Assembly (NCBI RefSeq): GCF_003171515.1
Contig: NC_089392.1
Coordinates: forward strand, 2,046,001-2,110,000
DNA length: 64,000 bases
Direction of reading: 5' to 3'
Source: Pyrenophora tritici-repentis
Lineage: Eukaryota > Ascomycota > Dothideomycetes > Pleosporales > Pleosporaceae
A program made the translations under genes and the position numbers. Positions 6,267 to 49,753 of this stretch are shown here, piece by piece (the first letter of the stretch is position 1; the number at the start of each line of letters is the position of its first letter). Under the pieces are notes generated by a model. It was not told the DNA's origin. It did no database searches and saw only the letters and a list, made by a program, of their open reading frames with translations.

Positions 6267-6971
6267 GCTGAAGAATATTAAAGGGTTTTGCTATCAAAGA
6301 GGATAAGAACTGTTTATAAGGTCACAGCTTATCGCGAAGAATTGCTGATTCGTGCAGTCTGGCCGTTTCTAAGATGCTTAACTCTCAATATGAGGGCGAA
6401 CAATTCTTTCCTTTGAACATGAAACCTCGTCACAAGCGCGATAAGCAAATGGATGAGTGCGATTCATGAAACCATCGCGGCAAGAATGAGGCATGCTATC
6501 TGGCCTACGTAGGCGCCGACGTGTGGCTGAGTAAATCGCCTTGATCGAAGCGAAGAGAACCTGGCACTCCGGGAGACGGCACGACAACAGAACGGGAGGC
6601 CTGAAGTAAGCTCGTCGCAGAAAGGAGCCGCTCGAGGCAATACGAAAACATACGACGACAAACCGCGCCGCTAGTTTCTTGTAGAGTTGGCTGCATGAGT
6701 CGTTGTTGCGTACCCGTACGCTGCTAAGGTGGGGGGGGGGATCGAACAGCACGTTACGGTATCGGTAGCCATAGTTAGACCCGAGAAACCAAAAAAAAAC
6801 ACTTGCTATCAGCAGCCCCACCCCAACTTGACCCAACATGACACCGTGCATCTTTCAGTCTGGGATTCGTAGCCAACTCATCTCAAGTATAGCCGTGTAG
6901 GTACTCTCTCCAAATGGACTATAGATTTTAGTAAATTAGAGCTTACGTCATCAATCAGCAACTCAACACCA
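6267..6971. other. Intergenic region upstream of the Zn2Cys6 gene
   Basis: About 700 bp that should contain the promoter of the minus-strand regulator. It has a run of ten G residues near 6728-6737 and an A-run near 6790. I find no convincing coding frame or repeat. Confidence 0.45.
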
Positions 6972-7109
6972 GGCGTTGTGGCGGGTAAGCAACATTCCAT
7001 CTCCTCACACACGAAAGCATCTTACTAACAGTACCTCGCAGAGTGGTTATCGCGCAAGACTAGAAATCTTGTTCCTTCGGGAGCGTCAGTTCGAATCTGG
7101 CCAACGTCG
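6972..7109 (+). tRNA. tRNA-Ser(AGA) with a GT-AG intron in the D-loop
   Basis: Joining 6972-6984 to 7042-7109 gives a complete type II serine tRNA. Acceptor stem: GGCGTTG (6972-6978) pairs with CAACGTC (7102-7108) over 7 bp with one G-U. D-stem: GCG (6981-6983) pairs with CGC (7051-7053) around the loop GAGTGGTTAT. Anticodon stem: CAAGA/TCTTG, loop CTAGAAA, anticodon AGA at 7062-7064. Variable arm: 7072-7084 with a TTCG loop. T-arm: GTCAG-TTCGAAT-CTGGC. Discriminator: G at 7109, as expected for Ser. A T-run ends the gene. The 57-nt insert (6985-7041) starts GTAAGC, has the consensus branch site ACTAAC at 7024-7029 and ends CAG, so it looks like a spliceosomal intron rather than the usual tRNA intron at position 37/38. 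It also splits the A box. A tRNA relic is the main alternative, but every stem is intact. Confidence 0.75.
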
Positions 7110-7111
7110 TC

Positions 7112-7118
7112 TTTTTTT
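7112..7118 (+). terminator. Pol III oligo-T terminator of tRNA-Ser
   Basis: Seven consecutive T residues begin three bases after the discriminator base, the normal position for RNA polymerase III termination. Confidence 0.8.
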
Positions 7119-17601: not shown

Positions 17602-19834
17602 ATGGATCCACACAACCTCCAAAAACAACGGGAGCCGGAAGAACCGCGTTTCCTCACCTTCCCCCACCTACCCGATGACGCGAAGCTCGAAGATGCCAGA
17701 CCAGCGTTGAACAAATACTCATCTACACTGACCGCCGGTCATAACTTTCCAGGAGCCCAGGTTTGCTATTCCAAGCATCTCATTTCAAGCTACGTTAGTA
17801 GCTAATAAGAGTGCAATCTGTTAGGCCATGTTATACGGTGCCGGTGTACCTTCGCGAGAAGCAATGAAGACATATCCCCACGTGGGCATAGCCAGGTGAT
17901 TTTGATCCATAGTAGGTTACATGTTCCGACACTGATGCTTTGAAAAAATTAGCGTCTGGTGGGAGGGTAATCCTTGCAAGTTAGTATGCCCCCACGCAGA
18001 CTTCGTCATCGTACTGATACCGTTGCAGTATGCACTGTAAGTCGACGTCTACCAGTCACATGACGATGCCTACACCCTGTCAAAACGACTTACATGGCGC
18101 ATGAACAACATTACTCGCGATGTTCTTGAGATGTTCATATGACTAATGTACTGACACCTGCATAGTGCTTGATTTGGGCAAGGAGATCAAGAAGCACGTT
18201 CAAAATGACAACATGCTGGCATGGCAGTACAATACCATTGGCGTGAGCGATGGAATTACCATGGGTGGAGAAGGTAACTCCTTTTTCTGATGAACTTCCC
18301 AGAGGCAATCAGCTGACCACGTCTATCCAGGAATGCGCTTTTCTCTCCAGACCCGCGAGATAATAGCTGACAGTATCGAAACTGTAACATGCGCCCAACA
18401 TCACGACGCCTGCGTAGCCATACCGGGATGTGACAAGAACATGCCTGGTGTCATCATGGCATTCGCTCGGCATAATCGTCCATCTATAATGGTCTATGGT
18501 GGCTCTATCATGCCGGGATATTCGCAGACACTGAGGAAGAACATCAATGTATCGACTTGCTATGAGAGCCACGGCGCATACATCTACAAGAACCTGAAGA
18601 GTGCAACTGAAGGAGAGTTCTCACCGGATGAGATCATGGAGGATATTGAGAAGAATGCTTGTCCTGGGGCTGGAGCTTGTGGTGGCATGTATACAGCAAA
18701 CACCATGTCTACTTCGATTGAAGGTATGATGCTCGTTCACTGGTCGGGTACGATACCACGATACACCTACTAATTTAAACAGCAATGGGCCTTACCCTCC
18801 CCGGTTCATCGACCACTCCCGCAACATCCCCAGCTAAAATGCGAGAATGCGCCAAAGCAGCAGCCGCCATCCGCGTCTGTATGGAAAAAAACATCACACC
18901 ACGCAAACTCCTCACCAAAGCCTCGTTTGAAAATGCCCTCGTAATCATGATGGCCCTAGGCGGCTCCACAAACGCCGTCCTGCACCTCCTCGCCATGGCC
19001 GGCACTGCAGGCGTACCCCTTACCCTCTCCGACTTCCAACGCGTAAGCGACAAGATTCCCTTCCTCGCCGACCTTGCTCCATCCGGTAAATATCTCGCGG
19101 CCGACCTCTTCGACATCGGCGGCATGCCCTCAGTAATGAAACTACTCGTAGCCGCCAGCCTCCTCGATGGCAGCATCCCCACGGTAACAGGGAAAACACT
19201 CGCCGAGAACATCGCATCCTACCCGTCTCTCCCCCAGGACCAAGTCATAATTCGCCCACTTTCCAACCCTATCAAACCCACCGGCCACATCGAGATCCTA
19301 CACGGCAACCTTGCGCCCTCCGGTGCCGTCGCCAAGATCACCGGAAAAGAAGGCTTGAAATTCACTGGCAAAGCCCTCGTCTTCAACAAGGAATACCAAC
19401 TCGACCGCGCGCTAAACCTAGGACAGATCCCCCATGGCGAAAACGTCGTCGTAGTCGTGCGCTACGAGGGCCCTAAAGGCGGTCCGGGTATGCCTGAACA
19501 ACTCAAAGCCAGCGCTGCAATCATGGGCGCCAGACTCACAAATGTAGCCCTCATCACCGATGGACGTTATTCCGGTGCCAGTCATGGCTTCATCGTCGGA
19601 CACATCACGCCAGAGGCCGCGGTGGGAGGACCCATTGCTGTGGTGCAAAACGGCGATTTGATAACCATTGACGCGGAGAAGAATAGGATTGATATGCATG
19701 TTGATCAAGGGGAGATTGAAAAGAGATTGCAAGGGTGGAACCCACCGAGCATGCCGGTGACGAGGGGTGTGTTGGCGAAGTATGCTAGGCTGGTCGGAGA
19801 TGCGAGTCATGGGGCTATGACGGATCTTTTCTAA
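17602..19834 (+). CDS. Dihydroxy-acid dehydratase, seven exons
   Basis: Catalyses dehydration of 2,3-dihydroxy acids to 2-oxo acids, the third common step of branched-chain amino acid synthesis, with an iron-sulfur cluster. Exons: 17602-17760, 17825-17895, 17953-17979, 18029-18036, 18166-18273, 18331-18723 and 18783-19834, giving 605 residues. Cluster cysteines appear in EGNPCNMHLLDLG, IPGCDKNMPG and GACGGMYTANTM. The C-terminal DGRYSGASHGFIVGHITPEA is the substrate-binding signature. The fourth exon is only 8 nt and completes the codons right after the first cluster cysteine. The protein starts MDPHNLQKQREPEE with no obvious mitochondrial presequence, and the catalytic region (QHHDACVAIPGCDK) differs from the usual housekeeping form. 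It may therefore be a paralogue rather than the main ILV3 enzyme. Whether it is cytosolic, or self-protecting like known resistance paralogues, is not shown here. Confidence 0.9.
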
Positions 19835-27244: not shown

Positions 27245-27401
27245 GGCTTCTTGGTCCAGTGGTCAGGACGGCACCGATAATCCGCCTCGAATGTGTCCTC
27301 GTTAAGGCCTCCTCATCTACGAGTTGAGATGTGCGGGCCTTGAGAAGGATTCATTCGAGGCTGGCTGTCATGCAGACTGAGGTTCAAATCCTTGAGAGGC
27401 C
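27245..27401 (+). ncRNA. tRNA-like gene A with a hairpin insert
   Basis: The ends fold as a type I tRNA. Acceptor GGCTTCT (27245-27251) pairs with AGAGGCC (27395-27401). The D-arm is GTC-loop-GAC with A box TGGTCCAGTGG. The T-arm is TGAGG-TTCAAAT-CCTTG with a B box. The variable loop is AGAC. Between the D-arm and variable loop lies about 100 nt that forms a long imperfect hairpin. It includes a perfect 10-bp stem (27284-27293 with 27352-27361) and an inner CATCT/AGATG. The first three pairs of an anticodon stem (GCA/TGC) continue into this hairpin. Position 33 is not T, so ordinary tRNA function is doubtful. Pol III transcription is inferred from the boxes and the following T-run. Confidence 0.6.
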
Positions 27402-27412
27402 AATTTCTTTTC

Positions 27413-47406: not shown

Positions 47407-49753
47407 TGACAATTGGGTGTGGTTGGTGCAGGTTGGGGAGAGTAGAGGCAATGATATTAGAGAAGGAAATCTGTTGGGCTAAGCGAGACCGACGCGTCGA
47501 CAAAGATGTTTGTTGATAGTGACGGTAACGGTGACAGTGGCGCGCCCTTGAAAGTGAAGCGCAAGACTGCACGCGCAATATCGCCGTGCAAGAGGAACCA
47601 GGACAAGTGCTCATGTCTTGAGTTACAGGTGTATAAGATGTATTGCTAGAGCTCTTTGAGTCTTACAGGAGGATCTGAAGAAGAAACTGCTTGAAATTGG
47701 AGTGTGTTGTGATCCTGGAAGCCGTGCAGCTGGCTTTACGGCTTTTTACACACCGCGGCCTGCCTCTGATCTGAGTGCATACAGGCTATCCAAATGGAGC
47801 CAAAAATTTTCAAAATGCTTCATTGCACGAAATTCTATCATCCAAGATTTGGTTGGTTCTGTGCAGTCCCGAGGTTCAGCTTGCCTACCTAGGTACCTGA
47901 CGCATCGATCACAACACTCACTATAATTCTTACAGTAACCTTGAAAATGTAGAAGTGATGGCGGCTTTTCGGCATCCAGAAATTTCTAATCTCTAAGCAA
48001 TGCGGACTTTGCGTTACAAGCCATTGATGGGCAGAGTTGCTCGCGGTAGCAGGTGCACAAGCCACTTATAACCATCGCGCCTTCAACAGCCTTGGCAATA
48101 CAGCTCGAAAGCCTAATCCACAGACTTTGCATTGATGGCTGCCATACCCAGCATCCAGATCACACCATAAACTCAAGATAGAGATTATTTCAGAACCTTG
48201 ATAACATTGGTATTGCATATACCAAGGCGCGAGGAGCCTCTCAACTGACCTAAGTCCTTACGTCAAGCTTCTGCGTCTTCTCATCCTACACCCTGCCATT
48301 CTAACACAGCCTGGATATCCAAATTTGATCAACTCTACCAGATTGCGCGCGTGTGGTAGACAGTTGTTGGTAGGCTTGCAATGCGGAGGTCTCATCTACC
48401 AAAGTGCCGTAGGTAGGTGCTGCCATGGTCCTATTTCGGGAGATACGACCGAGTGACCTGTTGTGACGGCAATATGACTAAACAAACAGCATAGTACAGT
48501 TGACCTGAGGCACCATTCCCAGAACTACAGCATCCAAAAGTCTTCAAATGGTTACATCGATGCAGCAAATTTGCGATCGAGGAGAACTACCAGCCTAAAC
48601 AAACAGCCAAAACAGAAAGGATCTCCTTCCTCAAGCAACTCGCAAGCGAGAAGAGTCAATGAAAAAGTCACGTCAACTGGAGATGGTGCAATACCAGTGA
48701 CACTGTGGCAATAAGTATGAGCAAGCCCAGTGACTGATCGCCTAGTTGCAAAAATGTTTTGTCGGGTGATATTTCTATCAGCCAATGCGAGATGACTCTA
48801 TTAAATCCCTCAAAGAGATAAATCAGCAGACTGCTGGAGGAAAAAAGAGAAGGAGGGGAAGTAGTGGGAAGGGGTTATATGCTCCCCAATAGCTTGGCAC
48901 GCTAGGCCTACACGTGACCTGACTATGTTGTTCTGACGGGTCGGCATGGGTATTCTTCGGGAGAACTGCGGCTCCCAGAGGTGAGCGGAGCAATACCGGG
49001 TTTGGGCTGGCTTTCATGCCATATCAAGCTAGCACATACAGGCACATGTGAGACACTTGTAGTGTCCGCGCCCTTGCTTCAGACATACGAATATGAGCTT
49101 CCTGTCTAGCTCTTTGATAGCTTGTGCTTTTGCTCTATGTGGTAACGGGGCAAGGAAATGTATCCACACCCACTGATACTCGGTACGTCTTCTCGCGCTT
49201 GGAATATATCATCTGTTGTTTACAGCATTTGTGGATGGCACTTGCTGAGTTCTTGAAGGCTCTTCCTCCTGTCTCCATTCAGGATGTACATCGAAAAGGA
49301 AACCTTCAAGTCACTCCCTTAGGCCTACAAACTTAGCCATTACATAGGCTGGAGACCGAAGTGCTAGATCATACGGTACAGGGCAAGCAACAACGCCCCG
49401 GAAGCATACAAGGTGGTAGCAAATGGTTGCCTAGTGAGGAATACTGTGTGTTGCAGAGGATAGACTTAGGGATCACTGTTTGGCAAGGGGACATAGAGGC
49501 ATGAGGAGGATACATAGGAAAATTCATTGCCGCAACGGCTCGTGTCTACTACCAAATCCCCTCTTACTCTCCCTTCCACCTCTTCATCTTCCCCCAATTT
49601 TCCTATGTATGCTTCACGCGGAGCTTGTCCCAACTCTATAGAAAATGTAAGGATGCATTCCAAACATCTTGATTAGGGAGAAGAAGGACTCACGGCTGTT
49701 GATTCTGAAGAGCAAGCCCGGAGGCGTGCTTGCTTGCTGAGATTTCACCGGTT
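47407..49753. other. Gene-poor region, nothing recognised
   Basis: About 2.3 kb with only short frames on both strands. I see no transposon ends, tandem arrays or RNA genes. Confidence 0.4.

Follow-up and report, generated by a model that had tools for sequence, protein, structure and literature searches.

Can a nuclear tRNA gene be interrupted by an intron of the kind that the spliceosome removes from mRNA precursors, and, if so, which machinery restores the tRNA? The question is raised by a serine tRNA gene of Pyrenophora tritici-repentis that lies at positions 6972 to 7109 of the window, which is the 64-kb stretch of DNA analyzed here (G000:C3:2046001-2110000, from an assembly of 40.9 Mb in 41 contigs). 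One protein encoded in the window shares 93% identity with an Alternaria protein and 91% with a Stemphylium protein, which fits a pleosporalean ascomycete.

A split tRNA-Ser(AGA) gene

The gene is read on the plus strand and consists of two exons. Exon 1 (6972..6984, +) contributes the acceptor 5' strand and tRNA positions 8 to 13, and exon 2 (7042..7109, +) contributes the remainder of the D-arm, the anticodon arm, the long variable arm, the T-arm, the acceptor 3' strand, which pairs 7/7 with its partner in exon 1, and the discriminator G. Between positions 13 and 14 of the tRNA sits a 57-nt intron of mRNA type (6985..7041, +) that begins with GTAAGC and ends with CAG. Its branch-site motif, CTAAC (7025..7029, +), is separated from the end of the insert by 12 nt, which puts the A that presumably serves as branch point at 7028, at a distance of 13 nt from the intron end. 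The gene is preceded by a CATCAA element (6949..6954, +), which is common upstream of both split and unsplit tRNA genes. A B box, GTTCGAATC, lies in the T-loop (7089..7097, +), inside a segment that matches the T-arm pattern (C3:2053081-2053097; window 7081-7097), and a run of seven T's, read from the sequence as a Pol III-type terminator, follows at 7112..7118 (+).

A first-pass annotation of this DNA had claimed that excision of 6985-7041 produces a complete tRNA-Ser(AGA), and two lines of evidence bear this out. ARAGORN recognizes the joined sequence (6972-6984 plus 7042-7109) as tRNA-Ser(AGA) with four arms and a long variable arm, and an intronless gene at C2:3225860-3225940 is identical to the joined sequence at 81/81 nt. 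Because this intronless twin exists, the insert can be described as an exact filled site. Shifting the insert leftward by one base yields an identical product, and GT-AG boundaries occur only in the placement given above. Left unspliced, the interval 6972-7109 drew no call from ARAGORN at default settings. Rfam returned zero matches within the 64-kb window at the gathering score and, at a relaxed threshold, a partial tRNA match at 7038-7101 that scored 25.3 bits versus a cut-off of 29. The same annotation had held that neither the acceptor stem nor the D-stem could form locally before splicing. That is correct for the D-arm but not for the acceptor stem, which still pairs when the unspliced RNA is folded to minimum energy, and so the D-arm is the part that the insert disrupts.

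A second tRNA-like gene was seen in the window at 27245-27402. In the best trial, its acceptor stem pairs 7/7, its D-stem 4/4, and its T-stem 5/5; it has CATCAA upstream, a T-run downstream, and a long hairpin insert in the anticodon arm. Inspection of this sequence revealed neither a clear anticodon nor an mRNA-type intron.

Split tRNA genes across the genome

The phenomenon extends beyond the single locus of the earlier annotation and affects seven isotypes. At least 12 nuclear tRNA-type genes carry an insert of 51 to 63 nt outside position 37/38, among 46 genes found with T-arm patterns: Ser(AGA) twice, Ser(TGA), Ser(GCT), Leu(CAA), Glu(TTC), Glu(CTC), Pro(CGG), Ala(CGC) twice, Asp(GTC), and Gln(CTG). 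The patterns contain no intron motif and recovered all 12 split genes; the census is confined to the T-arm sequences used, such that genes with other T-arms, or with inserts in the T-arm itself, would escape it. Contig C41 (about 183 kb) was taken to be mitochondrial and was excluded.

By pattern, the 12 split genes comprise 4/7 found with the Ser T-arm, 7/31 with GGGTTCRANYCCC, 1/7 with HGGTTCGANYCCD, and 0/1 with MGGTTCAANYCCK. The Ser T-arm search gave 16 matches: nine with one mismatch, which are not tRNAs, and seven exact, all of which belong to Ser genes. Split among these are one of three GCT genes, two of three AGA genes, and the single TGA gene. With GGGTTCRANYCCC there were 35 matches, three of them in C41; of the 32 elsewhere, 31 belong to tRNA genes, seven of which are split, namely, Leu(CAA), Glu(TTC), Glu(CTC), Pro(CGG), both Ala(CGC), and Asp(GTC). 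HGGTTCGANYCCD gave 90 matches, and the 20 examined include seven tRNAs, split Gln(CTG) among them; the other 13 (six SINE-like copies, one unclear sequence [L187], and six others) were left out, and the remaining 70 matches, mostly one of two repeated T-arm sequences, lie outside the census. Finally, MGGTTCAANYCCK has 17 matches outside C41, one of which is a tRNA-like gene in which no insert was resolved.

A D-arm pattern had 36 matches, 28 of which were covered (8 already in the set plus 20 new loci), and one split Leu(CAA) gene was present among the 20 new loci. Intron-motif patterns had 38 and 30 matches, all of which were tested, and only the four Ser genes possess a T-arm. The Rfam tRNA search yielded 63 matches, and 63 of 1172 first-look candidates were scored. 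The SINE-like repeat is an observation in its own right: dispersed 84-nt tRNA-Arg(TCT)-like elements and related forms share their 3' flank but not their 5' flank (e.g., C1:458516-458599 [L026], C1:1888456 [L027], and L192-L197).

Isotypes are those that ARAGORN assigns to the spliced forms, Gln excepted. The spliced Gln gene (L179) is called Lys(ctt) by ARAGORN, and its sister L181 is called Gln(ctg); L179 was named Gln(CTG) because 39 of the first 40 nucleotides are common to the two.

According to hand numbering, the inserts occupy seven positions, from 8/9 to 30/31, and every one is in the 5' half of the tRNA. Three other Ser genes have inserts that differ from that of the window gene yet contain the same motifs at the same 13/14 point: Ser(GCT) and Ser(AGA), which are arranged in tandem at about C1:8051450-8051760, and Ser(TGA) at C2:2046695 (L012), all on the minus strand. 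Glu(TTC) is likewise split at 13/14, Leu(CAA) at 15/16, Glu(CTC) at 8/9, both Ala(CGC) genes at 10/11, Gln(CTG) at 11/12, and Pro(CGG) at about 20/21, while Asp(GTC) is split at 30/31, in the anticodon stem. None of the 12 inserts is at the canonical position 37/38, where an endonuclease intron is expected, and 9 of the 12 split genes additionally have an ordinary anticodon intron at 37/38. Such 37/38 introns are common among the genes examined. In the tandem Ser(GCT)-Ser(AGA) pair (L011; G000:C1:8049952-8053020), the two genes are 16 nt apart. Because this spacer has no T-run, the two genes may be transcribed together, as one RNA that carries three introns of two kinds.

Splice grammar and the route of removal

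All 12 inserts start with GT, have a G at +5, and end with AG, and in 10 of them there is an A at +3; the 5' splice sites are mostly GTAAGY or GTACGT. The 3' ends are CAG in eight inserts, TAG in three, and AAG in one. A branch motif is present in each, as CTAAC in nine and CTAAT in three, with its A 10 to 17 nt from the end. Most inserts can be slid by 1 to 3 bases without a change in the product, and the GT-AG placement was chosen. When inserts were shuffled, GT, AG, and a placed CTAAY coincided in 13/200,000 cases for a fixed placement and in 25/200,000 for any equivalent placement; with +5 G added, the latter count fell to 2/200,000.

The first-pass annotation had likened GTAAGC, ACTAAC, CAG, and a length of 57 nt to the local grammar of mRNA introns, and a protein-coding gene of the window agrees. 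The dihydroxy-acid dehydratase gene (17602-19834) has six mRNA introns of 49, 57, 57, 59, 64, and 129 nt, whose excision leaves a single open frame; all six have GT, AG, and CTRAY, with the branch motif 9 to 19 nt from the end. The 12 tRNA inserts have three sequence features of U2-type introns, namely, GT-AG with +5 G, CTRAY near the 3' end, and a length within the range of local mRNA introns. Comparison of inserts with one another in seven pairs gave five scores like those of shuffles; for the other two pairs, the shuffle counts were low, at 2 and 24 of 500. Self-splicing was rejected on the basis of insert size, since the inserts span only 51 to 63 nt and the catalytic core of group I or group II introns far exceeds 63 nt.

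Canonical introns of the same genome look different. Among 25 examined at 37/38, as placed by ARAGORN, lengths range from 7 to 37 nt; three start with GT, three contain CTAAY, none ends with AG, and none has all three. Separately, three 35-nt Lys(CTT) introns (L147, L164, and L021, on G000:C1 and C6) include CCTAACAG and, as placed by ARAGORN, have no AG end.

An alternative is that the inserts are ectopic tRNA introns of the kind found in archaea and Cyanidioschyzon, which the tRNA splicing endonuclease cuts out. Noncanonical positions, including D-arm introns, are described in the accessible text of two papers (PMC9602550, PMC3978253), and many ectopic introns in the Guillardia theta nucleomorph are said, in the portions available, to have no defined bulge-helix-bulge motif (BHB). 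Moreover, split Gln (L179) can form a complete BHB in one of four equivalent placements, with the junction 3 nt to the right, which is matched in 4/20,000 shuffles; an endonuclease could remove the insert of that one gene. Nevertheless, a complete BHB is absent from 11 of the 12 genes over all equivalent placements, and at the GT-AG junctions an average of 3.17/8 pairs form versus 3.54/8 in shuffled introns. The endonuclease route also leaves the presence of GT/CTAAY/AG in 12/12 inserts, versus 0/25 canonical introns, without an explanation, and we know of no role for this grammar in that pathway. We therefore consider removal by the endonuclease to be improbable for the set.

The earlier annotation had proposed either the spliceosome or an endonuclease that acts through an unusual fold. 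Genome-wide, the three counts (grammar in every insert, no complete BHB in 11 of 12 genes, and grammar in none of the canonical introns) argue for the spliceosome, and spliceosomal removal appears, on the basis of these sequence comparisons, to be by far the best explanation.

Gene integrity and the proposed maturation route

The split genes retain much of the structure expected of working tRNA genes. In all 12, the acceptor 3' strand pairs 7/7 with exon 1; the 7-mer that would replace exon 1 in the absence of splicing makes 1 to 4 of 7 pairs in eleven genes, but for Glu(CTC) the count is 6 of 7. Glu(CTC) (L153) is therefore a weaker case. With the insert removed, ARAGORN calls a tRNA in 12/12 genes and the expected isotype in 11/12. 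With the insert kept and introns of up to 60 nt allowed, it makes no call in eight of the 12; for Ser(tga) (L012) and Glu(ctc) (L153), it reads the anticodon correctly but starts the gene within the insert, and for L160 and L168 it calls the wrong gene. Unspliced Ser(TGA) (L012) scores 30.1 bits with the Rfam tRNA model, above the cut-off of 29.

Empty sites within the same genome add to this picture. Without its 53-nt insert, split Ser(GCT) equals an unsplit sister at C1:4529844, with 98 nt identical, including the canonical intron. Glu(CTC) agrees with its unsplit sister at 37 of the first 40 nucleotides and Gln(CTG) at 39 of 40, with all mismatches at or after the 37/38 intron. Empty sites for Asp and Glu(TTC) were sought and rejected, since the same-anticodon genes are too divergent (31 and 28 matches, respectively, over the first 40 nucleotides).

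Could these be dead copies, that is, formerly functional genes that are now split and silent, while intact paralogues do the work? An intact, identical Ser(AGA) gene and the insert-free sisters of Ser(GCT), Glu(CTC), and Gln(CTG) would fit this idea, as would the state of the A box, an internal element expected to be intact in a tRNA gene, which is interrupted or displaced in 10/12: beside the insert, it is perfect in two genes (Pro and Asp), has one mismatch in seven, and has two mismatches in three; in the mature (joined) sequence it is perfect in 11/12. The first-pass annotation had itself counted abundant normal AGA genes elsewhere, together with missing mature RNA across the junction, as evidence against its reading, and normal AGA genes do exist in part, since one of the three AGA genes lacks the intron, and so the window gene is dispensable on gene count. 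However, acceptor pairing is intact in every split gene, and the exons of the AGA genes are identical even though their inserts differ, as is also true of the two Ala genes. Furthermore, unsplit Ser(TGA), Leu(CAA), Pro(CGG), and Ala(CGC) genes were not found with the T-arm patterns used, which genes with other T-arms would escape; the only Ser(TGA) gene found is split. Because exons are preserved despite differing inserts and unsplit copies were not found for these four isoacceptors, pseudogenes seem quite unlikely, marginally more so than endonuclease removal.

The flanks resemble those of other tRNA genes. A T-run of at least 5 follows 11/12 split genes, the exception being the first of the two tandem Ser genes. 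CATCAA occurs within 60 nt upstream of 9/12 split genes and 26/42 other nuclear tRNA genes examined, versus 29/1065 60-mers of the window. With a cloverleaf after splicing in 12/12, a B box, and these T-runs, the genes have several of the attributes expected of functional tRNA genes. The flanks also bear on the idea that the loci lie within longer Pol II transcripts, whose splicing serves that RNA and not tRNA production. GT-AG grammar is indeed typical of Pol II transcripts, but T-runs after 11 of the 12 genes, an upstream CATCAA that is common to ordinary tRNA genes, and joined exons that amount to precisely the tRNA make this the most improbable of the alternatives weighed here.

We conclude that these are very probably functional nuclear tRNA genes whose 5' halves carry spliceosomal introns of the U2 type. 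What the analysis establishes directly is the sequences, the occurrence of filled and empty sites, the cloverleaf regained on joining, and the splice-site motifs; Pol III transcription, spliceosomal removal, and an order of steps are what we infer. RNA polymerase III would transcribe the split gene; the spliceosome would recognize the GT 5' splice site, CTAAY, and AG and excise the intron of 51 to 63 nt, which would restore the D-arm (the anticodon stem in the case of Asp); RNase P and 3' processing enzymes would complete the tRNA; and tRNA endonuclease and ligase would act on those genes that have a 37/38 intron as well. In broader terms, we think it likely that spliceosomal introns have become widespread among nuclear tRNA genes in this fungal lineage as a third class of tRNA intron, next to those cut by the endonuclease and those that splice themselves, that Ser-UGA, Leu-CAA, Pro-CGG, and Ala-CGC tRNAs are made only with a working spliceosome, and that two splicing machines act on one and the same molecule in a set order.

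If the split genes are used, then the rule that the spliceosome plays no part in tRNA making would not be universal, and the decoding of particular codons would depend on pre-mRNA splicing. What would be new is the class of gene that hosts the spliceosomal introns, and the finding suggests that some tRNAs may need the mRNA splicing machinery, contrary to textbooks. Gaps in fungal tRNA sets may also be artifacts, since gene finders miss or misplace split genes, as evidenced by ARAGORN's treatment of the unspliced forms (nothing for eight, shifted for two, and wrong for two of the 12). The genes offer a natural system in which the spliceosome would handle a tRNA precursor whose first exon contains as little as 8 nt of tRNA, and they bear on how introns enter structured RNA genes and on how two splicing systems are ordered. 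Such questions are directly testable with intron-plus and intron-minus copies of one tRNA in the same genome.

Relation to known systems

Reviews, in the sections available, give the opposite as the rule, against spliceosomal introns in nuclear tRNA genes (PMC13149111, PMC3400036). Among the open-access papers listed, no description of such introns was found. The tRNA introns of Cyanidioschyzon merolae and the G. theta nucleomorph resemble the present ones in lying outside 37/38, including in the D-arm (PMC9602550, PMC3978253). In the available text, however, those ectopic introns are treated together with BHB and endonuclease, and no GT-AG or branch-site grammar is described. Canonical eukaryotic 37/38 introns differ in position and co-occur with the new introns in most of the split genes. 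The accessible text on tRNAscan-SE 2.0 indicates that noncanonical introns are handled for archaea only (PMC8450103).

A search of viral contigs for the D-arm intron pattern gave 18 loci, which were rejected as chance matches because none has the tested forms of the tRNA B box downstream. A Ser exon search found 0 loci in viral contigs and 13 in genome contigs, all titled archaeal.

Genes for other structural RNAs provide parallels as well. rRNA genes are transcribed by Pol I. Spliceosomal introns are present in ascomycete 18S rDNA, according to the available part of one paper (PMC11889510), where the host is an rRNA gene and not a tRNA gene as here. The precedent for a Pol III transcript that is cut by the spliceosome is U6 of Schizosaccharomyces pombe, as the accessible text has it (PMC8917221). 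That case, from Tani and Ohshima, concerns an mRNA-type intron in one snRNA gene of fission yeast, whereas here twelve tRNA genes of seven isotypes are involved. The best U6 copy in the genome of P. tritici-repentis has no intron. A match to U2 snRNA at window 48662-48819 was low scoring and was rejected on viewing. A partial second U6 lies near the first in the opposite orientation, and the U6 copies L211 and L212 have GTTCGAATC or GGTTCGAAC shortly downstream, which resembles an extragenic B box.
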